Assembly (NCBI GenBank): GCA_023384135.1
Contig: JAHDXS010000001.1
Location: forward strand, 1-64,000
Source: Alphaproteobacteria bacterium
GTDB lineage: Bacteria > Pseudomonadota > Alphaproteobacteria > Micavibrionales > Micavibrionaceae
Length of the DNA stretch: 64,000 nucleotides
Direction: 5' to 3'
Below are positions 1,602 through 51,436 of this stretch, piece after piece. The notes beneath the pieces are model-generated. The model was not told where the DNA came from. It saw only the letters and a program-made list of their open reading frames with translations, and ran no database searches. The translations under genes were made by a program, and so were the position numbers. Every line of letters begins with the position of its first letter. Position 1 is the first letter of the stretch.

Positions 1602-1802
1602 GTGCCTGCAACAAAACAGAATGTGGCCTCAAAGTCCAAACGTGATTCAGCGCCAAGAGCCTCGGTGACGTTTCCGCCTGAGCTTTACGAAATGCTCGAA
1701 GCCATCGCCCGGAGCAAGAAGGTTTCCGTTGCATGGGTGGTGCGCGACGCGGCCGAGAAGTATGTCGCTGACCAATGGCCTCTTCTGGAGAAGCCGCAAT
1801 GA
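1602..1802 (+). CDS. CopG-type ribbon-helix-helix regulator, 66 aa
   Basis: The short protein carries a typical ribbon-helix-helix fold: a beta strand ([14 protein letters not shown]), helix [10 protein letters not shown] and helix [11 protein letters not shown]. The GTG at 1602 is chosen because GGGAG lies about 9 bases upstream and because the longer frame from 1308 has no RHH-like sequence before it. Its stop overlaps the methyltransferase start (ATGA, 1799-1802), so the two are probably translationally coupled. In this position it could be a control protein that delays or limits expression of the restriction operon. The regulatory role is inferred from context. Confidence 0.75.
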
Positions 1803-3547: not shown

Positions 3548-3550
3548 GGC

Positions 3551-4288: not shown

Positions 4289-4300
4289 GAGGGATGCATT

Positions 4301-7641: not shown

Positions 7642-7665
7642 CTGACTCTGGTAGTGGTGCAGACG

Positions 7666-8943: not shown

Positions 8944-8972
8944 CAGAGTCCTCTTGACAGATAGCGATAATC

Positions 8973-9001
8973 TTTATACGGTGTTGTCTAGCCCGGACAA
9001 C
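8973..9001 (-). promoter_or_regulatory. Promoter and candidate operator of the XRE-ImmA operon
   Basis: On the minus strand TTGTCC (9000-8995) and TATAAA (8978-8973) are separated by 16 bases, a reasonable sigma-70 promoter for the XRE gene. A perfect inverted repeat GTTGTC/GACAAC (8983-8988 and 8996-9001) covers the -35 element and spacer, a good position for repression by the XRE protein. Confidence 0.5.
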
Positions 9002-9180
9002 GGACGGCTCTGAGTGCTTTTATATGGCTTATCGTTGGGTTCACTCATGGCTCTGACTCCGTAGTCTACTCAGACATACACCTTAACGAAGTGAGTTCGC
9101 GTTGACAAGGCAAATCTGAACCCGTCCACAGCAAGAGTGGGAACAGACGCGCCTCGGATCAAGAACAAGAAAGGCCCGAC

Positions 9181-11423: not shown

Positions 11424-12151
11424 CCGATGATTTGCAGCGGCAAATCGACGAACTGACTGGAGTCCATAAAGGGCTCAAGAATGTTGTTGAGCGCGATGAT
11501 GGGATTGTCGTCTCCGGCCTGCTGCCGTTCGAGGCGTCTGCGGACGGGCTGGAAACCATCACGGAGTCCTTCGAGATCGAGTTGACCATTCCGCGCGATT
11601 TCCCGGAGACGTTGCCGCGTGCCAGGGAGACGGGAGGCCGGATTGCGAGCGACTACGAGCACCGCAACCCAAGCGGCACGCTTTGCCTCGCCGTACCTAT
11701 CGAGCAGCGGCGTATCTTCCTTGAGAATCCCACGCTGCTCGGGTTCGTGAACCGGCTGGTCATCCCATATCTCTATGGGTACTGCTACTTCAAGACGCAC
11801 GAGCGCCACCCGTTCGATGAAGCGGCCCATGGGCATGAGGGCATCTTGCGGCACTATGTCGATACGCTCGGCCTGCGCGACGAACTCTCCGCGCTGACCG
11901 TCATCAGTTTTCTTCTCGAACACGGATATCGCGGACATCATGATTGTCCGTGCGGCAGCGGCACGAGAGTCAGGGACTGTCATGGACCGACGCTGATGGC
12001 GTTGCATCAGACCCATAACCAGCAATCGCTGCGAGGGGATTTTGCCGCGATCTTTAGCCTCTGCTTCAAACAGTTCGAAAACCAGCAAATCTCTTTTCCA
12101 AAGCCGTTGAGATTGCAGCTTCTCCGGCTTCTGAAAACATTCAAGGACTAG
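11420..12151 (+). CDS. CBASS stand-alone E2-like protein with C-terminal SEC-C motif
   Basis: A 243-residue protein starting at GTG 11420, with GGAGGG upstream and overlap with the CD-NTase stop. The N-terminal half resembles E2 ubiquitin-conjugating folds: FEIELTIPRDFPETLP, then HRNPSGTLCLAVP with the presumed catalytic C89. No E1 or JAB domain or gene is present, so this looks like a 'short' type II CBASS. E2 proteins in such systems form a thioester with the CD-NTase C-terminus and conjugate it, which primes the enzyme. Near residue 185 a CPCGSG...CH stretch matches a SEC-C zinc-binding motif, an extra module whose role is unknown. Confidence 0.82.
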   Translation: MTDDLQRQIDELTGVHKGLKNVVERDDGIVVSGLLPFEASADGLETITESFEIELTIPRDFPETLPRARETGGRIASDYEHRNPSGTLCLAVPIEQRRIFLENPTLLGFVNRLVIPYLYGYCYFKTHERHPFDEAAHGHEGILRHYVDTLGLRDELSALTVISFLLEHGYRGHHDCPCGSGTRVRDCHGPTLMALHQTHNQQSLRGDFAAIFSLCFKQFENQQISFPKPLRLQLLRLLKTFKD

Positions 12152-12419
12152 CAGGTCGTCAGGCCCCTTCGGCCCATCCGTCAAGGCCAAGCCCAAGGGG
12201 GCGTTCCGCGCGGGGCCGTGCCTCGCCAGCCTTTGCCGTGAGCTTCGGCTGGCTGCGGCCGCACCACCCCCGGCGCGGTCCGGCCTTGACCGATTCCTCC
12301 CGCTCTTGTTGTCGCTCCCCGTCGGGTTGCATGCGCAACCCCTCATTCCATTCGGAAAAGGGGCAAGGCCGCGAGTGTCGCGGCTCGCGCTCAACACCCA
12401 TGACGGAAAGGACTTTGTC
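12152..12419 (+). promoter_or_regulatory. Leader of the ParB-like gene with two perfect hairpins
   Basis: No gene is seen here. GGGTTGC (12324-12330) pairs with GCAACCC (12335-12341) across a 4-base loop, and GCCGCGA (12368-12374) pairs with TCGCGGC (12378-12384) across 3 bases. Both lie upstream of the GGAAAGGA ribosome site. The position resembles the hairpin leaders of DUF2958 and ArdC further on, although the sequence is not clearly the same. Confidence 0.45.
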
Positions 12420-14228
12420 ATGTCTATTCAATCCATATCCCTCTCTCAACTCACGCCTTCCAAAACGAACCCCCGCAAACTGTTCGATGTCGCCAGCCTC
12501 GAAGGACTGGCTGCCAGCATCCGCGCGGATGGGTTGTTGCAGAACCTTGTCGTGGCCCCCGCCAAGGGCAAGCGTTTTGCGATCATCAGCGGTGAGCGCC
12601 GATACCGGGCCTTAAAGCTCTTGGAGGAACGCGGCCAACTGCCCGTGAACTTCACCGTTCCGGTCGAGGTCCGCGCCGATGCCTCTAAAGAGGACCGTGT
12701 GCGCCTCGCCACCGTCGAAAACCTGCAACGCGCCGACCTCACGCCCTTGGAGCAGACCGAAGCCCTGACAAGGCTCGTCAAGGACGGGGACAAGCTCGAT
12801 GACCTCGCAGCCAAAACCGGACTATCCATAACCACTATCCGGCGGCGGCTGGCGCTGAACGCGCTGTGCAAGGACGCCAAGGCGGCGCTGGCAGACCGAA
12901 CCATCTCCCTTGCGCAAGCCGAAGCCCTGACCCTTGGCGGGGATGACGAGCAGATCGAAATGCTGTGCGACATCCTGAACGAGAACGTCGTCCACCCCGG
13001 AGAAATCCGCGAACGTCTGACGGACGCGCTGCCCTGCGTGGCCGATGCCATCTTCCCGCTTGAGCGCTACACCGGAACCATCACCACCGATCTGTTCGGC
13101 GACAGCGAAACCAGCTACTTCGATGATAGGCCACAATTCATCGCCTTGCAGACAGAGGCGGTGGCGGACCTCGCCGTGCAGTATCAGGACACGGCTTCAT
13201 GGGTTGAGGTCACGGAAGGTTGGCGCATCCAGCGTTGGCAATATGAAGACGCGCCTTCGGGCGAACCGGGCGGTGTCATCATCAATATCAACCCGCGCGG
13301 ACAGGTCGAGATCGTCACCGGACTGGCCCACGCTGTCCTTGAGGAAGAAACGGTGGAGGCTCTGGCCGAGAACCCTATCGCGCCTCCGAAGGCCAAGCCG
13401 TTCTACACCACGCCGCTGCGCCGGATCATTGGTCATTGCAAGAGCGCCGCTGTTGGCGAATTGCTTCTCTCCTCACCCCGCACGGCGAAGGAAGTCGCCG
13501 CTGTACTTCTGCTCGCAAATCTCAAACCGCATGAAGCTTACGCGGAAGCCGCCAAGCAGCCCGAGCACCAACAACCGTTTGAGGTGCTGGATGCGCACGC
13601 CCGCTTCATGGCGCAAAAGCTTGGCTTTGAACCCGGCGAGGATGAGCGCGGATGGGAGGCGCTTAAGCCCTTCAGGTCCGTCACCCGCGCCGAACTGTAT
13701 ACGGCGGTGAAGTGTTTGACCGATCACCAGTTGGATGAACTCCACACGCTGATCGTGGCGCTCACCTTCGGGCAATCGGATTGCGAGAAGCTGGATACGC
13801 GCGAAAGCTTCTTCAACCGCGTGGCCCAAGACCTCAAGGCCGACATGCGCCAGCACTGGACGCTGGACCGGGCGTTCCTCTCGCGCCGGAACCGGGAGCA
13901 GTTGATCGCCATCGCCAGGGCGAACGGCGCGGCGGACGGACGGGGCAGCCTTGGGTCTTACAAGAAGTCCGAACTGGTCGATACGATCCTGTTCCACGAC
14001 CGTAATGCGCGGCAAGCCGTATCGCCCACGCCGGAGCAGCGCAAGGCGCTGGACTGGCTGCCGGAAGCAATGAGCTTCCCCGCTGTCGATCCCGATGCGC
14101 ACGATGTCTCCGACGAACCGGACGAGGACAGCGCCTTAGAGGCCGAGGCCGATGAAGACGCGGCGAGCGAAGGCGATGCGCCGGATGCGGACGCGTTCGA
14201 AGACGAGCCTGTGCGCGAAGCGGCGTAA
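12420..14228 (+). CDS. ParB/RepB-like DNA-binding protein, 602 aa
   Basis: The N-terminal ParB/sulfiredoxin-like domain (about 1-110) includes NPRKLF, and SGERRYRAL, the CTP-binding GERRxRA-type box; a KorB-like helix-turn-helix follows (LDDLAAKTGLSITTIRRRLAL, about 135-160). The remaining 400 residues have no obvious domain and end in an acidic tail. ATG 12420 is chosen because GGAAAGGA precedes it and the ParB homology starts there. There is no ParA beside it. Long ParB-like proteins of this sort are common on alphaproteobacterial plasmids and mobile islands and sit with ArdC and DUF2958 genes. Partitioning itself is not assured for an integrated element. Confidence 0.88.
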   Translation: MSIQSISLSQLTPSKTNPRKLFDVASLEGLAASIRADGLLQNLVVAPAKGKRFAIISGERRYRALKLLEERGQLPVNFTVPVEVRADASKEDRVRLATVENLQRADLTPLEQTEALTRLVKDGDKLDDLAAKTGLSITTIRRRLALNALCKDAKAALADRTISLAQAEALTLGGDDEQIEMLCDILNENVVHPGEIRERLTDALPCVADAIFPLERYTGTITTDLFGDSETSYFDDRPQFIALQTEAVADLAVQYQDTASWVEVTEGWRIQRWQYEDAPSGEPGGVIININPRGQVEIVTGLAHAVLEEETVEALAENPIAPPKAKPFYTTPLRRIIGHCKSAAVGELLLSSPRTAKEVAAVLLLANLKPHEAYAEAAKQPEHQQPFEVLDAHARFMAQKLGFEPGEDERGWEALKPFRSVTRAELYTAVKCLTDHQLDELHTLIVALTFGQSDCEKLDTRESFFNRVAQDLKADMRQHWTLDRAFLSRRNREQLIAIARANGAADGRGSLGSYKKSELVDTILFHDRNARQAVSPTPEQRKALDWLPEAMSFPAVDPDAHDVSDEPDEDSALEAEADEDAASEGDAPDADAFEDEPVREAA

Positions 14229-14395
14229 ACCTGCTTAACCACCGGAGCGTCCGGCGGAGCTATCTGCCGGGCGCTTCTCGCGTATCCGTTTTGATCCTCG
14301 CAGTGCGCTCGGGTCTTTGGTCAGGCGCGAAGCATTCGTCTCCTTCCGGTGCGGTTTTGTTTTTTGCTCCCCGTCATAGCCGCGCGCGGCGTCGG

Positions 14396-14446
14396 CGCAA
14401 CGGGCGGCCCGCTCCTTCACATTCGTTCCCGCGTTGCCCGTTCCCC
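14396..14446 (+). repeat. Shared hairpin leader, copy A (upstream of DUF2958)
   Basis: CGCAACGGGCGGCCCGCTCC (14396-14415) and GTTGCCCGTTCCCC (14433-14446) recur at 16711-16730 (19 of 20 identical) and 16760-16773 (identical), upstream of ArdC. AACGGGC and GCCCGTT pair to give a hairpin. A third conserved part follows near 14480-14519, TGGTTCGCGT to AAGGAGA, including the ribosome site. The two leaders are clearly related by descent. Confidence 0.75.
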
Positions 14447-14525
14447 GCTAGTGCGGTGCGCCGCCGCCTTATCCACGCGGCTCCTGTGGTTCGCGTCAAA
14501 ACCGCAAACCAAAAGGAGACTGACA

Positions 14526-14885
14526 ATGAAACTTCTGACCAAAGACCAGCACGCGCAACTGCTCAAGAACGGCCAAATCAACGCGCAGCGCCAGATGGAC
14601 GGCCTCGATACCATCGACCATCCGCCGGTGGTGAAGCTGTTCACGCCCGATGCGAACTGCACCTGGCTCCTCTCCGAACTCGATCCCGAGGAGACCGACA
14701 TCGCCTTCGGCCTCTGCGACCTTGGCTTCGGAACGCCCGAAATGGGCAGTGTCCGGCTCTCGGAGATCGCAAGCCTTCGCGGGCGGCTCGGCCTTCCGGT
14801 CGAACGCGATCTACACTTCACGGGCAGCAAGCCGCTCTCGGTCTACGCCGAGGAGGCCCGTATCGCCGAGCACATCAAGGCGTGA
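14526..14885 (+). CDS. DUF2958 family protein
   Basis: A 119-residue soluble protein matching DUF2958: VVKLFTPDANCTWLLSELDPEE, then FGLCDLGFGTPEMGSVRLSEI, and a C-terminal GLPVERDLHFTGSKPLSVYAEEAR. AAGGAGA sits 7 bases before the ATG. Members are short, found almost only on plasmids and conjugative islands beside ArdC-like and ParB-like genes, and have no established biochemical role. It shares its leader sequence with the ArdC gene, which suggests common control. Confidence 0.85.
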   Translation: MKLLTKDQHAQLLKNGQINAQRQMDGLDTIDHPPVVKLFTPDANCTWLLSELDPEETDIAFGLCDLGFGTPEMGSVRLSEIASLRGRLGLPVERDLHFTGSKPLSVYAEEARIAEHIKA

Positions 14886-14984
14886 CGCCGTGCCTCGCCC
14901 TCCGCCCGGCTCCGGGCGGAGGGCATTTGTCGTTTAGGGCGGTACTGCCTTGCATCGTCCGGCACTTGCCGTTATCCATAAAGA

Positions 14985-15719
14985 ATGGCGCCACCCGACT
15001 CACAATCCACTTCTCACGCGCAGCGTCTGGCCGACCTGCGGCGCTTCTATGCGCTGCTGGACGAACTCGCCCGGCGCACGGGCGAGCCGCGCCGATTGGC
15101 CGAATGCTCGGGCCGGATGGAGTGGCCGCTACGCGGCGTCTATTTCTTCATGGAGCCGGGCGAAGTCCGGCAAGGCCGCAATGAGGGCCTGCGCATCGTG
15201 CGCGTCGGCACCCACGCGCTCAAGGATCAATCGCGCACGACCTTGTGGAAGCGTCTTTCGCAACACAAGGGACAAGCACGGTCCGGCGGCGGCAATCATC
15301 GCGGCTCGATCTTCCGGCTTCTGGTTGGTGCCGCGCTTCTGGCGGACGATCCGGCGCTGTGCGTGACCTGGGGGCAGGGGAACAATGCGGCCCGCACGAT
15401 CCGCGAGGCCGAACGCGAACTGGAGAGCCGCGTGAGCGCAGTCATCGGCCAGATGCCGTTTCTCTTCCTTCACATCGGAGACGATCCCGGGCCGCAGAGC
15501 TTGCGCGGCGTCATCGAGCGCAACGCGATTGCGCTCTTGAGCAATTCGGGCAAGACACCGTTCGATGCGGCCTCGAAGGACTGGCTCGGCTATCGCTGCC
15601 CGCGCGAACGGGTGCGGGCCTCTCACCTCTGGAATCAGAACCATGTGGACGAGACTTACGATCCCGCTTTCCTCGATGCGCTCGAAACGCTGATTCGCGC
15701 GGCGGGAGCCCGCGCATGA
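14985..15719 (+). CDS. GIY-YIG-like protein, 244 aa
   Basis: The central segment reads like a GIY-YIG fold: GVYFFMEPGE, then RIVRVGTHAL, LWKRLSQHKG and GNHRGSIFR, with a conserved Glu/Asn-containing C-terminal half. GIY-YIG domains are nucleases, but the key catalytic residues are only partly matched, so it may be inactive or divergent. The ribosome site before ATG 14985 is weak. Its stop overlaps the start of the next gene (ATGA, 15716-15719), so the two belong together. Function on the element is unknown. Confidence 0.65.
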   Translation: MAPPDSQSTSHAQRLADLRRFYALLDELARRTGEPRRLAECSGRMEWPLRGVYFFMEPGEVRQGRNEGLRIVRVGTHALKDQSRTTLWKRLSQHKGQARSGGGNHRGSIFRLLVGAALLADDPALCVTWGQGNNAARTIREAERELESRVSAVIGQMPFLFLHIGDDPGPQSLRGVIERNAIALLSNSGKTPFDAASKDWLGYRCPRERVRASHLWNQNHVDETYDPAFLDALETLIRAAGARA

Positions 15720-16370
15720 AGATCGTCATTCAGTGCGCGGCGAGCAAGGACCCGGCGGCGGGGATGATGACGACCAGCGAGGGAATGCCCGTCCTGTTCG
15801 TTGCTGATCCGGGCCTCGCGCCTGCGCGCACGGATATTGCTTATGCGCGTCCTGATGACTTAGCGGAAGACGGGCAGCGCGGACGCGATGTACTTCTGCG
15901 CTACAATCAGCAACCGGGCAGCAATCCGCTCGGTCTTCTCCCGGCCTGGCGGCTCTACCGCCACCCGGCTTACGGCAAGCTCGTCGAGCGTTTCGGTGAG
16001 ACCAATATCTTCATCCTCTCGGCAGGCTGGGGACTCATCCGCGCCGACTTCCTCACTCCCGCTTACGACATCACCTTCTCGGCGCAAGCGGAGCCGTTCA
16101 AGCGCCGCCGGGCGCACGACGCGTATGCGGACTTCAACATGCTCGAAGGGCGGCAGATCGAACGCGTCGCCTTCTTTGGCGGTAAGGACTACTTGCCACT
16201 GTTCTGTCGCCTAACGGAACACTCCGGGGCGGCGGATCGCCGTCTTCAATTCGGCCACAGAGCCGCAAGCGCACGGGGTCCGGTTCGTCCGGTATCACAC
16301 GCGGACGCGCACCAACTGGCACTACGAAGCGGTGAACGCCTTTCTGGACGGTGCCTTCTTCGCCACTTAA
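15716..16370 (+). pseudogene. YaaA/DUF6884-like protein, frameshifted by one base
   Basis: The first 166 residues (MKIVIQCAASKD to YLPLFCRL) include LSAGWGLIRADFLTPAYDITFS, which resembles the 'LSAxxGL...PY' signature of YaaA/DUF6884-like proteins. At 16211-16217 (CTAACGG) the frame goes astray. Dropping one of the two adenines at 16213-16214 restores a natural continuation, NTPGRRIAVFNSA to TNWHYEAVNAFLDGAFFAT, ending at TAA 16368-16370, for a protein of 217 residues. The unshifted frame runs on to 16564 without meaningful sequence. This is either a real inactivating mutation or a base-calling error. Read whole, it would be a partner of the GIY-YIG-like gene. Confidence 0.7.
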
Positions 16371-16865
16371 GTTTCGGCCTCGATGCGCGTGAGCGCGCAG
16401 CCGTCCATCTCGCAATCGCCCTTGCACTGATCCCATGCGGGCGGCCTGACGGTCATCCAGACCGTCGCTATCGCAATCCCTCACATCGGCGCATCGCGTT
16501 GATGCCGGAGGCTGGCCGCGCAGACGGGCGGGCGCGCCCGGCGGCGAGCGTTCCACTCGATTGAAGGCAGGCCGCACGGATCGAACGTGTCGGCTCCGGT
16601 CCTTTCTCCCGGCTGATCTTTGATCGCGTTCGCCGTGTTCTTCATGGCTTGCCTCTCCTTCGGGCGGTCGGTTTCGAAAGCTCCACCGAATCTGACGGGG
16701 GCGACGCACGCGCAACGGGCTGCCCGCTCCATTCCCCCGGATCAAGTCCGGGGTCCCGTGTTGCCCGTTCCCCCTGCGCTGTGCTTCGGGTGCGCGTCGC
16801 GTCTTAGCCCCCGTCTCCTCTGGTTCCGCGTGTTTCGAACCAACCGCCAACCGAAGGAGATCACC
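16371..16865 (+). promoter_or_regulatory. Intergenic region with shared leader copy B and a REP-like palindrome
   Basis: No gene is supported here. The right part repeats the DUF2958 leader (16711-16730 and 16760-16773, then TGGTTCCGCGT to GAAGGAGA before ArdC). Between the two conserved blocks a palindrome CCCCGGA (16735-16741) / TCCGGGG (16747-16753) has been added relative to copy A; CGGATCAAGTCCG-type palindromes are frequent dispersed repeats in Alphaproteobacteria. The left 340 bases show nothing I recognise. Confidence 0.6.
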
Positions 16866-17783
16866 ATGTCTAACGAACACGCCGACCGCAAAGATGTCTA
16901 CAGCCGGATCACGGACCGGATCATCGCCGACCTCGAACAGGGTGTGCGGCCCTGGATGAAGCCGTGGAACGCCGAGCACGCCGCCGGGCGCATCACCCGC
17001 CCGCTGCGCCATAACGGCCAGCCCTATAACGGCATCAACGTCCTGATGCTCTGGTCCGCTGCGATGGATCGCGGCTACAGCGCGCCAATCTGGATGACCT
17101 ACAAGCAGGCCGCCGAGATGGGAGCGCATGTCCGCAAGGGCGAGAAAGGCGAGCTGGTCGTCTACGCCAATAAGATCACGCGCACCGAGCATGATGCCGA
17201 AACCGGCGAGGACGAAGAACGCACCATCCCGTTCCTGAAAGGCTACACCGTCTTCAATGTCGAGCAGGTGGAAGGCTTGCCCGCGAAGTTCTACGAACTG
17301 GCCGAACCGGCCCTTGACCCCGTGCAGCGGATCGAGGCCGCAGACGCCTTCTTTACCGCCACCCAAGCGGATATCCGTCACGGCGGCAACATGGCGTACT
17401 ACGCCATCGGCTCCGATCACATCCAGATGCCGCCCTTCGAGAGCTTTCGCGATGCCGAGAGCTACTACGCGACGCTCGCCCACGAGGCGGCTCACTGGAC
17501 CCGTCACCCCACGCGCCTCGACCGCGACTTCGGTCGCAAGTCATGGGGCGATGCGGGCTACGCCCGCGAAGAGCTGGTCGCCGAACTCGGGAGCGCCTTC
17601 CTGGCCGCTGATCTCGGGCTCACCCTCGAACCCCGCGACGATCACGCCGCGTACCTCGGCCACTGGCTCGCCGTCCTCAAGGAGGACAAGCGCGCGATCT
17701 TCTCCGCTGCCGCTCTTGCGCAGCGCGCCGCCGACTTCCTGAACAGCCTTCAGCCCAAAGCCGAAACCGAGGCCGCCGCATAG
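16866..17783 (+). CDS. ardC: ArdC-like antirestriction protein
   Basis: A 305-residue protein with the N-terminal ArdC single-stranded DNA-binding domain (DVYSRITDRIIADLEQG, RPWMKPWN, PYNGINVLMLW, about 8-130) and a C-terminal zincin-like metallopeptidase domain with HEAAH (H206, E207, H210). ArdC proteins protect incoming single-stranded plasmid DNA from restriction during conjugation. GAAGGAGA precedes the ATG. It sits on an element that itself carries a restriction system, as part of a cluster of genes commonly found in the first-transferred region of conjugative elements. Confidence 0.92.
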   Translation: MSNEHADRKDVYSRITDRIIADLEQGVRPWMKPWNAEHAAGRITRPLRHNGQPYNGINVLMLWSAAMDRGYSAPIWMTYKQAAEMGAHVRKGEKGELVVYANKITRTEHDAETGEDEERTIPFLKGYTVFNVEQVEGLPAKFYELAEPALDPVQRIEAADAFFTATQADIRHGGNMAYYAIGSDHIQMPPFESFRDAESYYATLAHEAAHWTRHPTRLDRDFGRKSWGDAGYAREELVAELGSAFLAADLGLTLEPRDDHAAYLGHWLAVLKEDKRAIFSAAALAQRAADFLNSLQPKAETEAAA

Positions 17784-18402: not shown

Positions 18403-18963
18403 ATGAACCACGACAACAATGAGACTGATGAGGGTCCGGCTTCTCTGGAAGTTCCTAAACGGCGTATCGGTCGTGTACGCATGAGCCTGCTGCTTGGCCT
18501 ATTGCTATTGATGTCCACTCAGTATCTCAACCACACCGGATTCTGCTACGCCGAGATGAAGTACCTCAGCGAGCGCGAGCTGATGGATCGCGTGTTGTTT
18601 GGAAGTAATGCCCGCTCCATGACTGATAACGAGAAAGTCGATGACCTAAGAGCGCGTACTGGAGCCGAATATCCTGACTGCTGCCGCGTCAGCAAATTTG
18701 CGTTCGGGTGGTCGAGATTCACGATCCTGTTTAACAGCGCTCTTGGAAACTATCGGTACGGGTTTGAATACAGCTATCCGGCAGATAAAGCGAAAACGGG
18801 TTCTGAGGATTTGTTCCAGTGGTATGAGCATTCAATAAATTCTTGTGGCTCAAGTGCGCATACAGGATTTGGAGAAAGCAACTCGCAAGCCTCGTACGAG
18901 GCCATATTGAGATCTAACAACAAGAATTGGAGAAGAATAGAGGATGCCGACAGAGCCGATTGA
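18403..18963 (+). CDS. Hypothetical protein with one N-terminal membrane segment, 186 aa
   Basis: A cytoplasmic N-terminus of about 28 residues is followed by one hydrophobic segment (SLLLGLLLLMSTQYL, about 28-43) and a soluble, Cys-containing C-terminal domain (DCCRVSKF, SINSCGSS) that would lie outside the membrane. It resembles no family I recognise. Its end overlaps the giant RTX gene by 20 bases, so the two are probably made together and it may be an accessory or export-related partner. Its lower GC content matches the beginning of the RTX gene. Confidence 0.65.
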   Translation: MNHDNNETDEGPASLEVPKRRIGRVRMSLLLGLLLLMSTQYLNHTGFCYAEMKYLSERELMDRVLFGSNARSMTDNEKVDDLRARTGAEYPDCCRVSKFAFGWSRFTILFNSALGNYRYGFEYSYPADKAKTGSEDLFQWYEHSINSCGSSAHTGFGESNSQASYEAILRSNNKNWRRIEDADRAD

Positions 18964-21900
18964 ATTGACGTTTGAAGAATTCTCCGACATTCATGTCATA
19001 ACAAATCTCTTCTTATACGGAACTAAGACTACGCCGGAGCACTACGTTGACCGCTTGCGTTCCGCTCAGGAGTACGCTGATTTGCCACTGCTTGAGATTA
19101 ACAACGGTACCGCAACAGTTCCCGTTCTTAAGATTAACATTGACATGAAAGACTTCATGGAAAATGGCCCTGGTAAGTACGTCAGGGCAGCGCAGTTTGA
19201 ATTTGTTCAGGACTTCTTGGCGGGAAACGTTGCGCTACCCGTAGGAACGTATACACGCTTAGACCTAAGGGACAATCATGGGTTCAGCAATAGTGATTTT
19301 ACGGTGGACTTTCAGCAGTATGAGTTAGAGACGGATAATCCAGACTACGGCTGGCGGACATATATCTACAACTCATCGGCCTTTATTCTGTCGGATACCA
19401 CCCAGTTCGTAGTACATGCAGATGGCACGTTCTCAATCCAGAACGTATCCGTCCATGCGTTGAATGACAATTTCGACTTTGAAAGTGGTGACTGGCTAAC
19501 TCAACTAGCAAACTACATTCAGTTGGGAGGTGTTGTTGACCCGTACGCTATCGGACGCAGGTTGCAGTTTGAATTTCAGAACAAGCAAGATGTTCCTGTA
19601 ACTGAGGTCTACGATTTCACGACTGACCATCAGGCATACTTACAGATTGACTATGATGGAGGCATTGCAGATGCCAATGTTCCGATACAGTCTGTTATCG
19701 CCAATCTAAAAGCGGCTGGAACGATTGAGTATCTGACCAAACAAGGCCAGCACGTTATCTACGGAACGGCGAACGCTGACGCTCTCACCGGCACATCGTC
19801 ATTCTCGGATGTAAAGGACATTCTCGTCGCGGGCGATGGCAACGACGAGGTTGATGGATACAGAGGCGATGACATCCTTTACGGCGGCGCCGGGGAAGAC
19901 ATCCTGAAAGGCAGTCTTGGCCGAGATGAGGTCTATGGGGAGCTAGGCGACGACGTAATTTTTGGATTCGCCGGAACCAAGGGACTGATGTCCTCGGGAG
20001 GATTAGAGGGGGATTTGTATCACGGCGGCTCCGTGTTCATCCAAGATCAATCAACCGATGGGAGCGATACGCTCAACTACAGCCTCGTGGCTCTTGGCGG
20101 GCTGACACTTGAATATCTCGATCTGGTCAACGGTGATGTAGCCATCTACCAGAGCGCGCACGCGAGCGTCCCGTTGGAAAACAGAACACAGGATGTTGCT
20201 GTCTCGATTGAGACGTTCGTTCTGACCAACGACAGCGATACGTTGAAGCTTTCAAGCGGAGCACCGACTCGGGCCGCAAAGTTCTTTGGACTCGGCGGAT
20301 CGCTCGATAAGGTGGATTTGTCCGATAGCAGCCAAGGGATCACAGTCAACCCGGAAGATCAAAACGGGTTCCGCTCCATCGGGGCTGGGAAGTTCAGGGA
20401 GTTCGAGGTCATCCTCGGCTCAAACACGAAGAACGACATTTTCAAGGGCGGTGGTTCGGCCATCACGTTCGACGGTGGGGGGCACGAGACAGGAACGTTC
20501 GGCGACCGGGCCGACTACAGCGCCCTACTGGACCCGACCGGGCAATCTGGCCTGCCGACCAAGGGCCATATCGTGGTGGATATGACCAACGATACCGTCC
20601 GCGTGTCCACCAATGCGCGCGGCACCTCCCTCGACACGATCCGAAACGTCGAGAGCTATATCGGAACGCACGGCAACGACTTCTTCCGCGCCAAGGAGGG
20701 CGTAAGCGGGATTTCCTTCGACGGATTCGACGGCGTGCGCGACAGAGTCGATTTCTCGGCGTTCACCAGCGGCGTCACGGTTGATATGGAGACCGGAGCG
20801 GGCACCGTGCTGATCGTAAATGTCGAGGAAGTCAATGGCACCGCCTACGCAGACAATTTGACAGGAAGCGCCGCGAATGAATGGTTCTTCGGCAATGCCG
20901 GGGCGGACGAAATTTCCGGTGGCGGCGGGGACGACTATATCGAAGGTGGCGCGGGCGTGGACACGCTCGATGGCGGCGGCGGAGACGATACGTTCTATTT
21001 CCGTGGCAGCAGCGATGATCTTGATATCGTGAGCGGTTCCGGCGGGACGGATACGGTGTTCCTCGCTGGCTCGTTTAAGATGACCGGCGAACTGGCTTTC
21101 ATCCGCAACGGTGCAAACATCACCATCGTCGGCGCGGCGGTTGCCGACAGTTCAGTCGAGTACGTCGAGTATGGTGACACGGCCCGTTTTTCCATCGCTT
21201 CACTCGGACGGGAAGAGCCGCTTTACATCCCTGACAACTTCGTGGCCGGGACCACCTCTGATGACCCGGACCTCGTTGGCACGAGCCAGGACGATCTATT
21301 CTCCGTGTCAGCCGGCATTGATGTCATCGACGGCGGTGTCGGGCACGACGTCATGGATTATTCAGCTCTGTCTGCGGGGATTGTTGTCGATCTGAGCGGG
21401 GCTTCGGTTGTGGTGGATAAGGATATCCTCGGCGAGCAGTTCGACACGCTAACGTCCATCGAGGGATTCTGGGGTACGGATTTCGGAGATACCTTTAAGG
21501 GCAATGCAGCGGATAACGAATATCTCGGCGGCGCTGGTAACGACATTCTTCTCGGCGGCGGGGGCGACGATGTCCTGATTTCTGGCGGTGGCGCAGACCT
21601 CATACATGGCCAAGACGATAACGACTGGATTCACGGTGGCGGCAACGGCCTCCTGTCCGGTGGCAACGGATCAGATCACATCTACGCCCAGGGTGCGGAT
21701 ATTGCGTATGGCGATGGAGGGGAAGATTTCCTCTATGGAAGCGATTCGATCTTGGATGGTGGCGATGGGAACGACTTTCTCAAAGGTACTGCTAGCACGG
21801 TCTACAGGGAGAGCGCAGGAACGGATGTCATCCATGATTCTGGAAACGGTGTGCTGCAACTTACCGCAGGCAGTATCGGCGATCTGACGTTTTACCGTGC

Positions 21901-25871: not shown

Positions 25872-26150
25872 TCAGTTCAGTGTGCGGTCTTCGAGGCGGA
25901 ACGGATTGTGAAGCGCGCCCCAGGCGGCGAATAGTTGATCGTCGGGCATCGCGGCGAACCGCTGCTTGAGCGCGGCGATCTCCGGGCTTAGCCCATCGGC
26001 TTTCGTTTCCCGCAGATTGTGCCGCAGGATCGCAAACGGCTGGCGCATGAACATCGGGTGCATCTCCAGCGCCAGCAGCAGCGTTTCCAGATCGTCGATG
26101 GTTCGCTCTGCGTTCCAATCGTTGCTAAGCATCGGGTTCGTGCCCCACAT
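25872..26150 (-). CDS. Hypothetical protein downstream of the relaxase, 92 aa
   Basis: A small helical protein (MLSNDWNAERTIDDLETLLLALEMHP to ALHNPFRLEDRTLN). ATG 26150 is favoured because the segment before it in the longer frame (from 26204) looks like shadow of the relaxase gene. It overlaps the relaxase end by 26 bases, so it is the last gene of the leftward mobilisation operon. No family is recognised. Confidence 0.55.
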   Translation of the reverse strand: MWGTNPMLSNDWNAERTIDDLETLLLALEMHPMFMRQPFAILRHNLRETKADGLSPEIAALKQRFAAMPDDQLFAAWGALHNPFRLEDRTLN

Positions 26151-27474
26151 CTTTGCCGCGACCGGGGCGGCGCGGCGCTGATCCGCGCGGTGCGCGCGTG
26201 CCAATCCCTAGATCAGCTCCCTTGACCTTGCCCCGAAACACGTCCGGTTTCGCGTCGCGTTCGCGCTCCGGCATCGCCATTTTCGTCAGGTCGCCGGCCA
26301 ATCTCTGCATCTCTTCTTCATGCCGCTTACGCATTGACGCAAATTGCATTTGAAGCTTCTGGCGTTGATCGAGTTGGACCTCGATTAGCTCCTGCCGTTC
26401 CTCGCGGTCACGCACATGGCATTGCCACGCTTCCTTCTCGTTGGCCTTGCGGATGGTCCAGTATTTTAAGGTGAGCTTGTCCCAGAGGCCCTTGAAGCCT
26501 TTACGGACGCGCGACGCCCGCACAGCCTGCTCGGCGTTCCATCGCTTTTCGAGGAACGCCTTCTGCGCCGCACGGTCCTTGCGATGTTGCTCGGTCATCG
26601 TCTTCTTGATCCGCAGCAGCGGACGCAGTTCCTGCTCCTGCGTCTTCTGCAATTCGGCGCGATAGGTGTCGAAGAGAGAACGGACCGACGCGCCCAGCTT
26701 CTCCTTCGCTAGCTCGACCGAGGGCAGTGCCTCCGGTTTGCCGAGGCGCTTTTCCAGCTCTTTGGCCTTGATGCCAAGTTGCCGGGTGAGTGAGAACACT
26801 TCCCCGTAAACATCCACCGCCACGAAGCCGCGCCGATCCCCGCGCGCGAGCAGAAAGCCGCGTTCTTGCAGAACGGCGGCGAAGGCTTTGGCGCTATCGG
26901 CGGCGGCCCAACATTCTTGCAAGCAGGCTTTGATGGCCGAGGCGCTGCGCCCGGTGCGCGCGGCTTGCTGCCATTCCTCGCGCGTGTAGGTGAGGGGATT
27001 GCGGTGCGCCTTGTCCATTAGGCCGCGCGGCAAGGTCCAGCCGTGCTCGAAGAAGAGTTGCCGTGCAATCGCCTGGAGCTTGGTCCGGTCGTAGGCGATG
27101 TTGACGGCCTTCATCTCGTCCACCTTGATGCGGCTCCAGACGCAATGCGCATGGCGGCGGCCTTCCTTCTCATGGAAGACGATCACGCGCGGCTGATCGG
27201 TCAGGCCGAGCTTGTCCTCGATCTCTTTGAGCGCCTTCTCGAACGCCTCGATGGGGACGCTCTGATCCTTGGGCGGATTGAGCGAAAGCGAGTACAGATA
27301 TTTCTGGCACTGGGTGCCGCGTGCGAGGGCGTAGGCTTCTTCGAGCGCGCCGCGCACGTTGGTTGCCAGAAACCCCCGGACCTGATGGACGGTCACATGC
27401 TCGTTCTGCATCCCGTTCAGAAGATGCGCGGCCATCTGCCGCCCGCCGCCGCGCTGGTTGCCCTTGAGGATCAT
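26125..27474 (-). CDS. Relaxase/mobilisation nuclease (MobA/VirD2 family)
   Basis: A 449-residue relaxase with the nuclease domain in the first 200 residues. The metal-binding histidines are seen in FHEKEGRRHAHCVW (H101, H108, H110), and the tyrosine-containing stretch KYLYSLSLNP lies before it. The C-terminal half is a long charged helical region (QEQELRPLLRIKKTMTEQHRKDRAAQ) likely to form coiled coils. Relaxases nick the element's oriT and pilot the strand to the recipient. The pattern fits the PF03432 group (MOBP-like). Its start overlaps the MobC stop by 4 bases. The oriT itself is not identified. Confidence 0.9.
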   Translation of the reverse strand: MILKGNQRGGGRQMAAHLLNGMQNEHVTVHQVRGFLATNVRGALEEAYALARGTQCQKYLYSLSLNPPKDQSVPIEAFEKALKEIEDKLGLTDQPRVIVFHEKEGRRHAHCVWSRIKVDEMKAVNIAYDRTKLQAIARQLFFEHGWTLPRGLMDKAHRNPLTYTREEWQQAARTGRSASAIKACLQECWAAADSAKAFAAVLQERGFLLARGDRRGFVAVDVYGEVFSLTRQLGIKAKELEKRLGKPEALPSVELAKEKLGASVRSLFDTYRAELQKTQEQELRPLLRIKKTMTEQHRKDRAAQKAFLEKRWNAEQAVRASRVRKGFKGLWDKLTLKYWTIRKANEKEAWQCHVRDREERQELIEVQLDQRQKLQMQFASMRKRHEEEMQRLAGDLTKMAMPERERDAKPDVFRGKVKGADLGIGTRAPRGSAPRRPGRGKDVGHEPDA

Positions 27475-27890
27475 CCATCCTCCTTCGCGCCGCCGGGGGT
27501 CAGGCCGAGCGCGGTCAGGAGCAGGTCGCGCATGGAATGGATTGCCCCGCAGGATTCGAGCAGCGCCCGGTGGACATCCTCGTTCAGGGGCAGGGAGCCG
27601 GTGTTGGCGGCCTTGGCGAGCTGGTTGACGTTCTGGGAAAGCCGCGACTGGCCGAGCAGCCCGAGGAGTTTGGCGAGCGCCGCCCGGTCCTTGACGGGCT
27701 TGGCCCCGCGCGTCCGGGGCCGGACCTCGCGGGCAAGAAGCGCATCCTTTATATAGGCGCCGAGCGGCTGGCCGTCGGCGAGTGCGTCGAGCGCTTTGCG
27801 TTCTTCCGGGGTCAGCCGCAGGGAGAACGGTGCGCCGTGTCGGCGCTTGTCCGACGTGCCTCCGGTGGGTGGGCGCACGCGTTCAGGCAT
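27471..27890 (-). CDS. mobC: MobC-like relaxosome accessory protein
   Basis: A 139-residue basic protein with an RHH-like start (GAPFSLRLTPEERKALDALADG) and the MobC core (AKLLGLLGQSRLSQNVNQLAKAAN). MobC proteins bind oriT and help the relaxase open the DNA. ATG 27890 is chosen because it overlaps the end of the serine recombinase gene (ATGCCTGA); an upstream ATG at 27902 is possible. The gene overlaps the relaxase start, giving tight recombinase-MobC-relaxase coupling. Confidence 0.85.
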   Translation of the reverse strand: MPERVRPPTGGTSDKRRHGAPFSLRLTPEERKALDALADGQPLGAYIKDALLAREVRPRTRGAKPVKDRAALAKLLGLLGQSRLSQNVNQLAKAANTGSLPLNEDVHRALLESCGAIHSMRDLLLTALGLTPGGAKEDG

Positions 27891-29760
27891 GGCCGCCCCC
27901 ATTTTGGGTTGCGGTGCGCGGGGTTACGCCCGTAGAATGCGCGGCTCTGGAAGCGCGAACTCCCTCCGAGTTGGACAGTACCGCGCTTGAAGTACAAAGG
28001 GCGGCAGGGCCGGCAGCGATATCGAACGCTTGAAACAGCAGTAGATAGCGTTGGTAGGGAGCCCCCGCTACCAACGCCATCTTGGAGGGTTCCAAACGGT
28101 TATCGTTAACCGCTTTTGGGAGCCTCCCGGATATAAGCCGATCCTTTCTGGCCGCCTCTGCTCCGGCGGCCAGGTCAAGGATTCCGGCCAGATCGCCAAA
28201 CAAGTCGATCTTCAATTCGTCCCGCCCTGCAATCCCCAAATGGGACCAGGGCGTCAGGACGATTTTCTCGATCAGCCCCCGCACATGCTCCGCCGGTTCG
28301 CCGCGCCCCCCAGTTTGGGCGAGCGCGTCCCGCAGGGCCGCGATTTCTTCCCGGTAGCGCCTTGCCATCGCCGGATGCAGGAGCGGCCTTGGCTGTTCAC
28401 TGCCCTGGGCAATGAGTTTTTCCAAGGTGTCCAGCCTTGCGGCAATGCTCTCCAGCTCGTCCTTGACGAGGTTGGCGGCGATGCCGTCCCGGATCGCCGT
28501 CAAGACGTTCGCACGGGCCTTCTGGAGCCGCTCCCGCTCGGCCTTGGCCTCGGCAAGCGCGGAGTCCTGAGCCGCCCGGAGGCGGTTCAGGTGCCGGGTG
28601 TATTCCTCGCAGAACACTTGCACTAGATCGTCCCGCATCAGGTGGGTCTGGAGGGCCGAAAGGACTTTGGCTTCCAGAACGTCGCGGGCGATGGTCTTGC
28701 GGTTCCCGCATACCGCTTCGCCCTTGTTCTTGGAGGCCGCGCACCCGTAATGGGTGGAGTTGATTTTGGCGTAGCCCCCGCCGCAGACCCCGCACTTGAC
28801 CAGCCCCGAGAGCAGGTAACGGGGCCGGTTGCGTGCCCACAGGCCCGGAGCCTTGGCGTCCAGCGCCTTCTGCCGGGCCTTGGCGGCCTCCCACAATTCC
28901 TGCGGGACGATCCGCAGCTCGGGAAGGTCCTGCCGGATGAGCGCCGACTCGTCATTGAGCCGCGTCACCCGGCGGCCCGTGGCCGGGTCCTTGATGAAAC
29001 GCTGGCGGTTCCAGACGAGCTGCCCGATATACAGTTCGTTGTTGAGAAGGCCGGTTCCCCGGCGTCGATTGCCGTTGATGGTCGATTGCCCCCATGCCTT
29101 GCCGGACGGGCACTTGATGCCCTCCCGGTTGAGCTGGGCGGCAATGGCTTTCGGTGAAAGGTTCCGCCGCGCGTAATCCTCGAAGATGCGGACCACCACT
29201 TCGGCCTGCGCCGCGTGGATCGTGCGATCCCCGCGCAGGGCTTGCCCTTGCGCATCGAACCGCTTCACCACGTCATAGCCGTAGGCGATCCCGCCGCCGG
29301 ACTTTCCGTGTTCGACCCGCCCGCGCAATCCGCGCCGCGTCTTGTCGGCGAGGTCTTTCAGGAACATCGCGTTCATCGTGCCTTTCAGGCCGATATGGAG
29401 GGTCGAGATTTCGCCTTCTGAGAGCGTGACCATCGAAACGCCTGCGAACTGCATCCGCTTGTAGACGCCCGCGATGTCTTCCTGATCGCGGGAAAGACGG
29501 TCGAGCGCTTCCGCGAGAACGATATCGAACTGCCCGGCGAGCGCATCGCGAATGAGCGCCTGGATACCGGGCCGCATCAAGGACGCGCCCGACAATCCGG
29601 CGTCGCTATAGCACTCAACAATCTGCCAGCCTTCCGCCTTCGCGCGTTCGGTGCAGAGGCGGAGCTGATCCTCAATCGAATGATCGCTTTGCAGATCGGA
29701 GGAGTAGCGCGCATAGAGCGCGACGCGCTGGCCTGTCATCTGTGTCGAACTCTTCATCAT
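27883..29760 (-). CDS. Large serine recombinase
   Basis: A 625-residue large serine recombinase. The N-terminal catalytic domain (about 10-155) carries ALYARYSSDLQSDHSIEDQ with the presumed nucleophile S20. The recombinase domain (GGGIAYGYDVVKRFD to ELYIGQLVWNRQRF) and a zinc ribbon (KCGVCGGGY ... YGCAAS ... VCGNRKT) follow, then a coiled coil. Such enzymes integrate or excise mobile DNA without DNA synthesis. ATG 29760 overlaps the stop of the small gene upstream (ATGA). The element also has a tyrosine integrase at its end, so this enzyme may be from an element inserted earlier, or act in a different step. Confidence 0.92.
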   Translation of the reverse strand: MMKSSTQMTGQRVALYARYSSDLQSDHSIEDQLRLCTERAKAEGWQIVECYSDAGLSGASLMRPGIQALIRDALAGQFDIVLAEALDRLSRDQEDIAGVYKRMQFAGVSMVTLSEGEISTLHIGLKGTMNAMFLKDLADKTRRGLRGRVEHGKSGGGIAYGYDVVKRFDAQGQALRGDRTIHAAQAEVVVRIFEDYARRNLSPKAIAAQLNREGIKCPSGKAWGQSTINGNRRRGTGLLNNELYIGQLVWNRQRFIKDPATGRRVTRLNDESALIRQDLPELRIVPQELWEAAKARQKALDAKAPGLWARNRPRYLLSGLVKCGVCGGGYAKINSTHYGCAASKNKGEAVCGNRKTIARDVLEAKVLSALQTHLMRDDLVQVFCEEYTRHLNRLRAAQDSALAEAKAERERLQKARANVLTAIRDGIAANLVKDELESIAARLDTLEKLIAQGSEQPRPLLHPAMARRYREEIAALRDALAQTGGRGEPAEHVRGLIEKIVLTPWSHLGIAGRDELKIDLFGDLAGILDLAAGAEAARKDRLISGRLPKAVNDNRLEPSKMALVAGAPYQRYLLLFQAFDIAAGPAALCTSSAVLSNSEGVRASRAAHSTGVTPRTATQNGGGHA

Positions 29761-30080: not shown

Positions 30081-31757
30081 TTATCCGGCCCTGGCCGGCG
30101 CGGGGCGGGGCGCAGGTGAGGAATTTTTTTCTCTCCCAGCGCGTTTGGCCCAGACCGCATCCGCGAAGTACGGCAATTTCTTCGCGCGGATGACGGGCTG
30201 CCCGGCAATCGCAATGAGCTGCTCATGCTCAGGCAGACGCCCGATCTCATCGGGGCTCAGCACCGGGAAGCCGCGTTCGCCGACCGAAAGCCGCCAGGGC
30301 GAGAAGAGATTCTCGGCGTCGCGCGCAACGCTGCGCCCTTTGCGGGTTGCGTTGCCGATCCGTGTGCTCCATGCCTTGCGGTCGAACTCACTGCGGATCG
30401 ACCACGCCTGCATGAGGCTCGATTGATCTTCGATCAGCCCGGCGATATTGGGGCCATAGATGTCGAGAGACTGGCGGCGGGACTGGAAGATCATCCAGCA
30501 CCGCACGCCCTTGCCGGGGAGCAGCGAGAGCGCCTTGCCCAGATTGGGCAGGCGTCCGAGATTGCCCATCTCTTCGAGAAGGAACAAAAGCCGTGTGTGC
30601 CGCTCATGCATGGTGGCCGACGCGGCGACGGTTTCCAGAAGCAGCGTGACGATCAGCCCCATCCACGGCCCATGCGTTTCGAGCTTGGATTCCGGGAGGA
30701 TCAGATAGAGCGTGGTGCGCCCATCGAGCACATCGGCCAAAGTGAAGTCGCTTTCGAGCAGCGATTGGCCGAAGTCGGAATGCGCCTCATAGAGATCGAG
30801 CGCATTGAGCGCGTTATCCCGGAATGCGCCGAAGGTCTTCACGTACTCGGGCTCCAGCCCATCGGCGAGCGCGTTTCCGTATTCGCGCAGGAGTCCGGCA
30901 AACAGAGCCGAGCCCTGCATCTTCGCCGCGATGGCGAATTTCTCGGCCTCGCTGGACCAGACGCAGGCCCTTAAGCCCGGCAGCGTGCATTTATCGGGCT
31001 CGAAGGCGGCGAGATACAAGAGGAAGGTGACGATCAGCCGCCGCCCGCCATTACGGAAGAAGATCCCATCGCCGCCTTCGCCGAAGCCGCGTTCGGGAAT
31101 GAGCTGCAAGGCGATCAACTTACAAAGCGCGTGCAGATCGCGCCCGCCATTGCGCAGGACATCCTCGACCAGAACGCGTAAGGGGTTAAATCGCAGGCCC
31201 GGAATCCCGCGCGCGCCGAAGGGATTGAGGATCAATATCCGCTGCCCGTCTTTGCGCCGCCAGGCCGCCGTCAATTCGGTCAGCTCGCCTTTGACATCCG
31301 TGACGATGACGCTGCCGGAAGTCCAGTGCAGCAGCGCCGGGACAACGAGCGAAGTCGTCTTCCCCGTGCGGGCCGGGGCATAGGCCAGCATGTGGCCGTT
31401 GCCCCTTTGATACGGATCGTAGAAGAGCTTCTGGCCTTCGAGCGTGCCGATGAAGAGGCCGCGCCGTGCGTTGATCAGAGCTTGAACGAAACGGTCCTTG
31501 AGGACGGCGAGCCGTGCAGCGCCGTAATCGCCCGAGAGGATGCGGCTTTCATGCAGGAGATTGATCTGCGTCGCCGTCTCCAGCCCCTGCATGAGGTGGA
31601 GATAAAGACAGCGCGCGGCCAGCGCCAGACCGAGCGCCATGAGGACGACGCCCCAGACAAACCAGCGCGGATGAACGCAGACATAGAGCCCGCCGACCAT
31701 GAAGGCGAGCGCGACCAGGAGCGCGATGAACGGAGAGGTGCGCGGCGGCCTGCGCAT
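30081..31757 (-). CDS. traG: VirD4/TraG-type conjugative coupling protein
   Basis: A 558-residue membrane ATPase. Two N-terminal membrane segments (FIALLVALAFMVGGLYVCV and FVWGVVLMALGLALAARCLYL) precede the ATPase, with Walker A at about 126-134 (APARTGKTTSL) and a Walker B-like LLFLLEEMGNLGRLP near 395. The family links the relaxosome to a type IV secretion channel. Only the coupling protein is present and no VirB/Trb channel genes are seen in the window. Its start is 3 bases downstream of the preceding vWA gene, so they share an operon. Confidence 0.92.
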   Translation of the reverse strand: MRRPPRTSPFIALLVALAFMVGGLYVCVHPRWFVWGVVLMALGLALAARCLYLHLMQGLETATQINLLHESRILSGDYGAARLAVLKDRFVQALINARRGLFIGTLEGQKLFYDPYQRGNGHMLAYAPARTGKTTSLVVPALLHWTSGSVIVTDVKGELTELTAAWRRKDGQRILILNPFGARGIPGLRFNPLRVLVEDVLRNGGRDLHALCKLIALQLIPERGFGEGGDGIFFRNGGRRLIVTFLLYLAAFEPDKCTLPGLRACVWSSEAEKFAIAAKMQGSALFAGLLREYGNALADGLEPEYVKTFGAFRDNALNALDLYEAHSDFGQSLLESDFTLADVLDGRTTLYLILPESKLETHGPWMGLIVTLLLETVAASATMHERHTRLLFLLEEMGNLGRLPNLGKALSLLPGKGVRCWMIFQSRRQSLDIYGPNIAGLIEDQSSLMQAWSIRSEFDRKAWSTRIGNATRKGRSVARDAENLFSPWRLSVGERGFPVLSPDEIGRLPEHEQLIAIAGQPVIRAKKLPYFADAVWAKRAGREKNSSPAPRPAPARAG

Positions 31758-35280: not shown

Positions 35281-36600
35281 TCAGAGGAGTTCCGCCGCCT
35301 TAACGCGTTCGCGCAGGACATCGAGCGTCGGCACGTCATCGACCGTGGGTGCGTTGACGATCTGGTCGAGTACGAACGCCCACACCTGAGCGGCGCGCTT
35401 CTTCTCGAAGTCATAGGAATATTGCACATAGACTTCGCCCGTTACGTCCCGTTCGCCATCTGAGTGATTGAGCATCAATCGGGCATAGAGTTTTGGCAGG
35501 CCGACCGCCGTAATCCACGTCGCGCCCGTGCGTCGCAAATCGTGAGGACAGATGTTAATGATGCCCAGATCATCACGGCTGCGCCGGACCGCCTGAGAGA
35601 AGGCGGTCTTGCCGAACGGCTTAAGCGACTTGCTCGGCTTGCGAGGAACCTTGAACGCCCGTGTGGCCCCGAATACATATGGGCTTGATCCCGTGTAGGG
35701 GCGCACCTGCTCGATCAGCGCCAGCGCGTAGCGGTTGAGCGGAACACGGTGCATGTTCCGGTTCTTGGTTTCACCCATTTCCATTTGCCATACGCCCTCA
35801 TCGAGCTTGAGAGAGGTATAGCGCATGTGCCGGAGTTCTGTGCTTCGCTGCATGGTCACGAGCGCGAACTTCAGAGAAGCCACGGTCACAGGTGGCATAC
35901 CAAGTTGATCGAGCTTGTTCCAGAACAACCAGAGTTCCTTGAGAGACAGAACACGGTCCCGCGTTCCGGCCACTCCAAGGGACTCGACTTCGATCACCGG
36001 ATTGGCCGCGATCAGATTGCGCTTCTTGGCCAGATTGAAGAGCTGGCGTGTGTAAGCCAGAGTGTTCTTGATCGCGACCTTTCCGCCGCGCGAGGCGTTC
36101 TTGCGCGTCTTTGCTCGATTGAGGATGCGCGTTTGGATGCGCTCGATGTCGTCGGTCGTAACCTCATCAAGGAATTTGTTCCCAATGGACGGAACGACAT
36201 CGCAGGCGAACACGCGCTCTTCCTCCCGGACGGAGGCTTTGCCTTTCAGTAGCATGAGATCGAGGTAGGTGTCGATGAAGGCCGAGACGGTCAGCCGTCC
36301 GTTTTTCTTCTTCGTTTCGTCCTGGCGTTCGGCGACGGGATCGCGCCCATAAGCGTGGACCTGCTCATAGAGCGCGTCATACTCGCGCCTCGCTTGGCGG
36401 ATCGACCATTCCGGGTATCGGCCAATCGTGATCCATCGGTCCTGTCGCCCCCGTTTGTACTTGAATACGAACGACTTGACGCCGGACGGGGCCACACGTA
36501 CCCCGAAGCCGGGGCAACCGTCGCACCAGTAGGTGTCGCGCTTACTGGAGGGTTTGATGTTCCTGATTACGGTGTCGAGAAATCGAATTGTTGTTGGCAT
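35281..36600 (-). CDS. int: Tyrosine site-specific integrase
   Basis: A 439-residue integrase with the N-terminal DUF4102-type arm-binding domain (WCDGCPGFGVRVAPSGVKSFVFKYK), a core-binding domain and the catalytic domain: Arg in STELRHMR, HDLRR box, NHSD and the nucleophile Tyr in VYVQYSYDF. This family typically inserts genomic islands into tRNA 3' ends. Its start faces a truncated tRNA-Lys 240 bases away, which is the usual arrangement at an island end. It is the best candidate for the enzyme that placed this element here. Confidence 0.93.
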   Translation of the reverse strand: MPTTIRFLDTVIRNIKPSSKRDTYWCDGCPGFGVRVAPSGVKSFVFKYKRGRQDRWITIGRYPEWSIRQARREYDALYEQVHAYGRDPVAERQDETKKKNGRLTVSAFIDTYLDLMLLKGKASVREEERVFACDVVPSIGNKFLDEVTTDDIERIQTRILNRAKTRKNASRGGKVAIKNTLAYTRQLFNLAKKRNLIAANPVIEVESLGVAGTRDRVLSLKELWLFWNKLDQLGMPPVTVASLKFALVTMQRSTELRHMRYTSLKLDEGVWQMEMGETKNRNMHRVPLNRYALALIEQVRPYTGSSPYVFGATRAFKVPRKPSKSLKPFGKTAFSQAVRRSRDDLGIINICPHDLRRTGATWITAVGLPKLYARLMLNHSDGERDVTGEVYVQYSYDFEKKRAAQVWAFVLDQIVNAPTVDDVPTLDVLRERVKAAELL

Positions 36601-49512: not shown

Positions 49513-51393
<1,881 letters not shown>

Positions 51394-51436
51394 ACTGCAT
51401 TCATGGTATCGCCCAAGGGTGGCAGATTGAAAGGAA

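Follow-up and report, generated by a model that had tools for sequence, protein, structure and literature searches.

The shared leaders and their surroundings

The window, that is, the whole stretch of 64,000 nucleotides that was analysed, carries a gene for a DUF2958 protein and a gene for ArdC, and the blocks that a first-pass annotation had seen to be shared between their leaders are confirmed: a block of about 20 bases, GCGCAACGGGC[G/T]GCCCGCTCC, at 14396-14415 and 16711-16730 with one mismatch; a block of 14 bases, GTTGCCCGTTCCCC, exact in both, at 14433 (DUF2958) and 16760 (ArdC); and a third similarity near the ribosome site (...GGTT(C)CGCGT...AAGGAGA). The hairpin that had been proposed from the first two blocks stands in so far as AACGGGC pairs with GCCCGTT, but this pairing is merely the top of a larger fold. 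Both leaders carry one element, in which three nested stems (P1-P3) surround a core, GCCCGCNCC...CCGTGTTG, at 14376-14482 and 16691-16816, with 3′ ends 43-49 nt upstream of the ATG. The features are as follows (R1 is the covariance model of the family; arms and cores are given without strand).

12420..14228, plus: ParB-like gene of the same island (ParB_N and HTH_ParB by Pfam), with an unrelated leader hairpin of its own
14376..14482, written on plus, folded strand presumably minus (template): hairpin element 1, before DUF2958 (R1, 92.2 bits)
14378..14385: 5′ arm of P1, paired with 14475-14482 (alignment structure)
14394..14405: 5′ arm of P3 (GGCGCA ACGGGC), paired with 14457-14462 and 14436-14441, containing block 1 (alignment structure)
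14407..14415: conserved core 1, GCCCGCTCC (family comparison)
14429..14436: conserved core 2, CCGCGTTG (usually CCGTGTTG), start of block 2 (family comparison)
14469..14482: bulge TTATCC and 3′ arm of P1, the base of the hairpin on the gene side (alignment structure)
14483..14519, plus: P5, hairpin with the DUF2958 Shine-Dalgarno, putatively acting in the mRNA (P5 analysis)
14526..14885, plus: DUF2958 gene (PF11171, Pfam E 2e-42)
16691..16816, minus: hairpin element 2, before ArdC, of the same architecture, with inner hairpin CCCCCGGATCAAGTCCGGGG (R1, 74.6 bits)
16722-16730 and 16756-16763: cores 1 and 2 of element 2
16817..16861, plus: P5, hairpin with the ArdC Shine-Dalgarno (P5 analysis)
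16866..17783, plus: ArdC gene (ArdcN and MPTase-PolyVal by Pfam)
26125..27474, minus: relaxase, MobA/VirD2-like, MOBP type (PF03432, E 5e-15)
27471..27902, minus: NikA-like mobilisation protein, below the Pfam cut-off (PF21983, E 2e-4)
30081..31757, minus: type IV secretion coupling protein, TraG/VirD4 (PF02534, E 2e-54)
35281..36600, minus: tyrosine integrase (Pfam), adjoining a partial tRNA match at 36823-36879

The relaxase, NikA-like, coupling protein and integrase genes support the mobilisable island that had been suggested, and the integrase with the partial tRNA match likely marks its end. Between island copies the genes at 12-18 kb and 26-34 kb are about 78-91% identical, while the cargo differs. 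Here the cargo (1775-12151) is dense in defence genes: a type II methyltransferase and a restriction enzyme, a class II prokaryotic Argonaute, CapH/CapP, and a CBASS with phospholipase effector, cyclase and E2; other copies carry different cargo. Between ArdC and the mobilisation genes, a protein of 2306 residues with many GGxGxD-type repeats (18944-25864) occupies a slot that holds different large proteins in other copies, and a large, weakly CcrB-like serine recombinase (27883-29760) overlaps the NikA-like gene in the mobilisation operon. The gene at 15719-16369 is apparently frame-disrupted after about 16215; island copy 3 has an intact version (218 aa, locus L009). A TPP riboswitch at 51299-51399 on the minus strand is unrelated to the element.

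The ParB-like gene had also been credited with hairpins of its own, and its leader at 12178-12292 does have large ones; yet it lies outside the family, as the scan of this leader with the family model gave no match (best score 8.3 bits), and its candidature was rejected. Its hairpin (GTCAAGGCC...GGCCTTGAC), different from the element, is kept in the two other island copies, and under DNA parameters the template strand is favoured by about 3 kcal in each of the three; it may represent a second family of similar kind.

A covarying family

A search of the host genome recovered the leader six times (E 1e-59 to 8.5e-5): the contig carries three copies of the island, each with one leader ahead of DUF2958 and one ahead of ArdC. 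The leaders of the three islands are 71-97% identical, and a sister species has one further copy. Among DUF2958 relatives taken from 80 loci, many show the same leader design, a stem, then GCCCGCNCC, a variable hairpin and CCGTGTTG, in which the pairing of the stem is kept while its sequence varies (AACGGGC/GCCCGTT, AACGGCC/GGCCGTT, ACCCCC/GGGGGT, ATCGCC/GGCGAT). The alignment of leaders, which had been put forward as a check, yields one covarying structure: across 17 sequences, 94.1% of the cells of P1, P2 and P3 are paired, against 28-40% in slid controls, and two-sided compensatory change occurs in 15 of 24 pairs, exceeding all 500 shuffles. Run over 980 kb of related loci, the covariance model returned 48 matches, of which 47 have the orientation of the gene that follows. 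They come from alpha-, beta- and gammaproteobacterial elements (among the last, Luteimonas and Thalassolituus) and stand ahead of DUF2958, ArdC, ParB and two small proteins. The sharing of leaders is not due to chance, given the six genomic copies, the paired and compensated alignment and the matches of the model, and we hold it as practically certain that the structure is real.

The element was present in 6 of 385 sampled Alphaproteobacteria and in about 6% of one family, and matches no family of Rfam 15. A pattern scan of IMG/VR returned mostly chance matches, and R1 had a hit in about four of the loci to which it was applied.

The strand that folds

A stem selected in mRNA should tolerate G-U wobbles on the sense strand, and a stem selected in the opposite strand should instead show A-C on the sense strand. 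When only isolated wobbles flanked by Watson-Crick pairs were counted, P1-P3 gave 31 A-C against 6 G-T, and the adjoining P5 gave the reverse, 5 A-C against 13 G-T (Fisher p 1.4e-4, a value that, like those below, ignores the shared ancestry of these related sequences and is hence optimistic). The reversal in P5, immediately beside P1-P3, makes a regional mutation bias unlikely. Strand-symmetric folding of P1-P3 in 54 non-redundant elements gave 40 A-C and 18 G-T. In the model alignment P1-P3 had 28 A-C to 9 G-T, the contrary of what a cis-regulatory RNA would show, against 2 A-C to 16 G-U in alphaproteobacterial TPP riboswitches (Fisher p 7e-6). Only the pairs enclosing the core inform on direction: the strand-symmetric fold of the whole element shows no asymmetry (102 G-T, 86 A-C), diluted by the core and the inserted hairpins, and whole-fold counts are blurred for real RNAs too (96 against 74 for TPP), for which reason the TPP control was taken from Infernal alignments. 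A first count for P5, 24 against 32, was blurred by over-extension of the helices and was replaced by the strict one.

Folding energies computed with DNA parameters point to the same strand. The template strand is the more stable in 60 of 60 elements, as it is in all nine F-type Frpo sequences (close relatives of one another), and in only 4 of 30 TPP riboswitches; for the window the values are −35.9 against −31.6 kcal (element 1) and −42.8 against −40.6 kcal (element 2). Base composition alone accounts for about half of the raw difference between strands; measured against dinucleotide shuffles, the template strand of the element retains an advantage of 2.0 kcal (p 8e-7), and TPP shows none. 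A batch gathered later behaved alike, the template folding better in 9 of 9, with 7 A-C against 0 G-T and distances of 45-56. It is thus likely that the element folds as template-strand DNA, with the proviso that template-direction wobbles fit both single-stranded DNA and antisense RNA, which the signature does not tell apart. The comparison of wobbles between strands is moreover a cheap general means of separating single-stranded DNA structures from RNA structures in genome alignments.

Downstream genes and the second hairpin

The distance to the gene is nearly fixed: in 49 of the 56 non-redundant elements with an identifiable start, the end lies 42-53 nt before the start codon (median 47.5). 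The typical leading-region gene set that had been recognised here extends to the family, as 72 of 77 readable downstream proteins fit seven reference groups, which include DUF2958, ArdC, a small protein (about 80 residues) to which no Pfam family corresponds, an MGLDMY-type protein and ParB; the genes downstream are establishment genes. Between the element and the ATG lies P5, a second hairpin, which pairs with the Shine-Dalgarno region (score 18.3, against 12.9 for shuffled sequence).

The direction of transfer

Four complete plasmids (Ruegeria pTHAF33_d, Phaeobacter pP80_d, Dinoroseobacter pDSHI06 and one of Leisingera) share a layout in which a gap separates the element and ArdC, then DUF2958, from the relaxase operon, and all genes run in one direction. 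The gap between DUF2958 and the relaxase operon holds CATATCCTGCC, with the nick CATATCCTG|CC on the minus strand. This RP4-type nick was found in loci L103, L104, L105 and L283; in these compared plasmids it agrees with the MOBP consensus (C/T)ATCCTG(C/T) beside the relaxase operon, and in three loci (L104, L105 and L283) a 5-bp inverted repeat lies 5′ of it. Since the relaxase of such systems attaches to the 5′ end (PMC3772185), a nick on the minus strand means that in the four plasmids the transferred strand is the template of ArdC and DUF2958, and that the element follows the nick into the recipient at a distance of 3-8 kb. The strand given by the nick is therefore the one to which the wobbles point, and the leading-region genes are read toward oriT in these plasmids, as the gene set also suggests.

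Thus the polarity that had been supposed holds for the four plasmids, but not demonstrably for the island of the window, where a search for oriT found none and the relaxase gene, on the minus strand, does not fix the local polarity. Nor is polarity uniform, for the relaxase gene lies on the strand opposite to the element genes in loci L015 and L084 and in the window island. A nick candidate in the window, CATATCCTGC (33554, minus), was rejected, because an ORF covers it and island copy 2 lacks it. Aminobacter pMDW2 has a similar nick, GTATCCTGCC, with a 7-bp inverted repeat before mobC (locus L285, 39773, minus) and DUF932-DUF2958-ParB on its leading side, and there the model found no element.

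Promoter boxes and previous work

Neither leader of the window contains a canonical sigma-70 promoter, and neither has a promoter-like site on the minus strand. The −35 and −10 boxes that the folded hairpin rebuilds in Frpo/ssi sequences are likewise not to be seen in the folded element, whose bulge consensus, CTTNNSC, lacks the A of a −10; its resemblance to the Caulobacter GCTANAWC is weak, and a Caulobacter-type −35/−10 in the hairpin was rejected. The search of the F leading region with R1 gave no match up to E 5, and the element shares no homology with Frpo at the level of sequence.

Experimental evidence for single-strand promoters comes from a few enterobacterial plasmids.

Frpo works as such a promoter, and the known examples carry canonical −10 and −35 boxes (PMC9849209). 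A survey of leading-region promoters used five known Frpo/ssi sequences and a −35/−10 consensus (PMC11541004), so that the present element would have escaped it. ArdC acts in recipients, though for the ArdC of R388 the same authors state that it is produced only after the DNA has become double-stranded (PMC7213743). Our search of full-text literature, to which subscription papers and preprints do not belong, returned nothing relevant on DUF2958 with ArdC or on alphaproteobacterial single-strand promoters.

Interpretation

The simplest reading, given the selection on the template strand, the tie to the start codon and the early entry on the transferred strand, is that the element is a hairpin of single-stranded template DNA that acts as a single-strand promoter for establishment genes, in the manner of Frpo and unrelated to it in sequence. 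The promoter function is deduced, and as the element is not Frpo by sequence and has no visible −10 or −35, we give this reading a probability of roughly 0.55. The hairpin would form in the template strand, which is the one transferred in conjugation, and upon entry into the recipient would switch on ArdC, DUF2958, ParB-type and small leading proteins; RNA polymerase would use the folded hairpin, the start of transcription would lie close to the base of P1, some 47 nt upstream of the ATG, and P5 would form within the resulting mRNA. As a refinement, the start could fall inside the 5′ arm of P5, in such a way that only read-through transcripts would have a complete P5 and be translationally shut. 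The Frpo/ssi-type promoters that the first-pass annotation had imagined are hence retained in part: covariation, the wobbles and energies of the template strand with their controls, the polarity of the transferred strand in four plasmids and the establishment genes speak for them, and against them speak the missing boxes and homology, the relaxase on the opposite strand in the window island, L015 and L084, and the statement on the ArdC of R388.

A bolder form, which we consider rather improbable, is a novel class of single-strand promoter without −35 and −10, read through the conserved core and coupled to a translational latch: transcripts from the incoming strand would begin inside the Shine-Dalgarno hairpin and be translated, and read-through transcripts made after double-stranding would fold the full hairpin and remain silent. 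If so, the expression of establishment genes would be strictly transient.

A cis-regulatory leader, in which P1-P3 of the transcript would bind a ligand or protein and control the neighbouring P5, was favoured at first for the constant spacing to the start codon and the pairing of the Shine-Dalgarno far above shuffled sequence, to which the sense-type wobbles of P5 (13 against 5) and a conserved core within covarying stems, typical of aptamers, may be added; it was demoted because the wobbles of P1-P3 lie on the wrong strand (31 against 6), and with the template folding better in every element, the opposite of TPP riboswitches, and no match in Rfam, it now appears unlikely. It is also unlikely that the hairpin of the transferred strand is a site for the start of complementary-strand synthesis or for protein loading (an ssi or primase site), from which the genes would benefit only indirectly. 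The strand signature and location would be the same, Frpo itself also makes primer RNA (to go by the title of Masai and Arai 1997, cited in PMC11541004), the core is conserved without promoter boxes and related plasmids encode toprim proteins; but there are several copies per mobile element, one per gene and at a fixed distance from the ATG, and priming needs neither.

The wobbles would suit any molecule with the template-strand sequence, including a structured antisense RNA transcribed away from each gene. Such an RNA is very improbable, as neither leader has a promoter-like site on its minus strand, in the upstream flanks no base is conserved beyond 0.4 bit and no run resembles a terminator for the antisense direction, and P5 beside it switches to the sense-strand signature. 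Recently duplicated double-stranded promoters with a hairpin of no role would explain why the leaders of the three islands are so similar, but covariation contradicts this, the stems being compensated between loci of alpha-, beta- and gammaproteobacteria, and as no sigma-70 sites were found we give it hardly any credit.

Should the reading as a single-strand promoter be true, a separate, non-homologous family in proteobacterial plasmids and islands would mean that early expression of genes on incoming DNA is widespread and has arisen convergently, and each copy would mark unknown counter-defence genes downstream of it (DUF2958 and two small unnamed families).

Comparison with known systems

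With cis-regulatory mRNA leaders the element has in common a conserved core in covarying stems and a Shine-Dalgarno hairpin, and it differs from them in that the wobbles and energies of its stems favour the other strand and in having no family in Rfam 15. It resembles the Frpo/ssi sequences of F and ColIb-P9 as an intergenic hairpin ahead of antirestriction and establishment genes transcribed toward oriT, present in several near-identical copies per mobile element and folding better in the template than in the sense strand. However, it is GC-rich and without similarity to them by sequence or model, has a conserved core where Frpo has canonical −10 and −35, leaves about 47 nt between its end and the ATG, and occurs in alpha-, beta- and gammaproteobacterial plasmids and islands. 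As for the leading regions of MOBP (RP4-type) plasmids, the single-strand promoters known from the literature are, in contrast, for the most part enterobacterial, and they were identified through BLAST similarity to Frpo or through the −10/−35 consensus (PMC11541004); the likeness is in the nick, CATATCCTG|CC with a short inverted repeat, and in the relaxase on one side with the element genes on the other, and F has the same layout as the four plasmids with nick sites.
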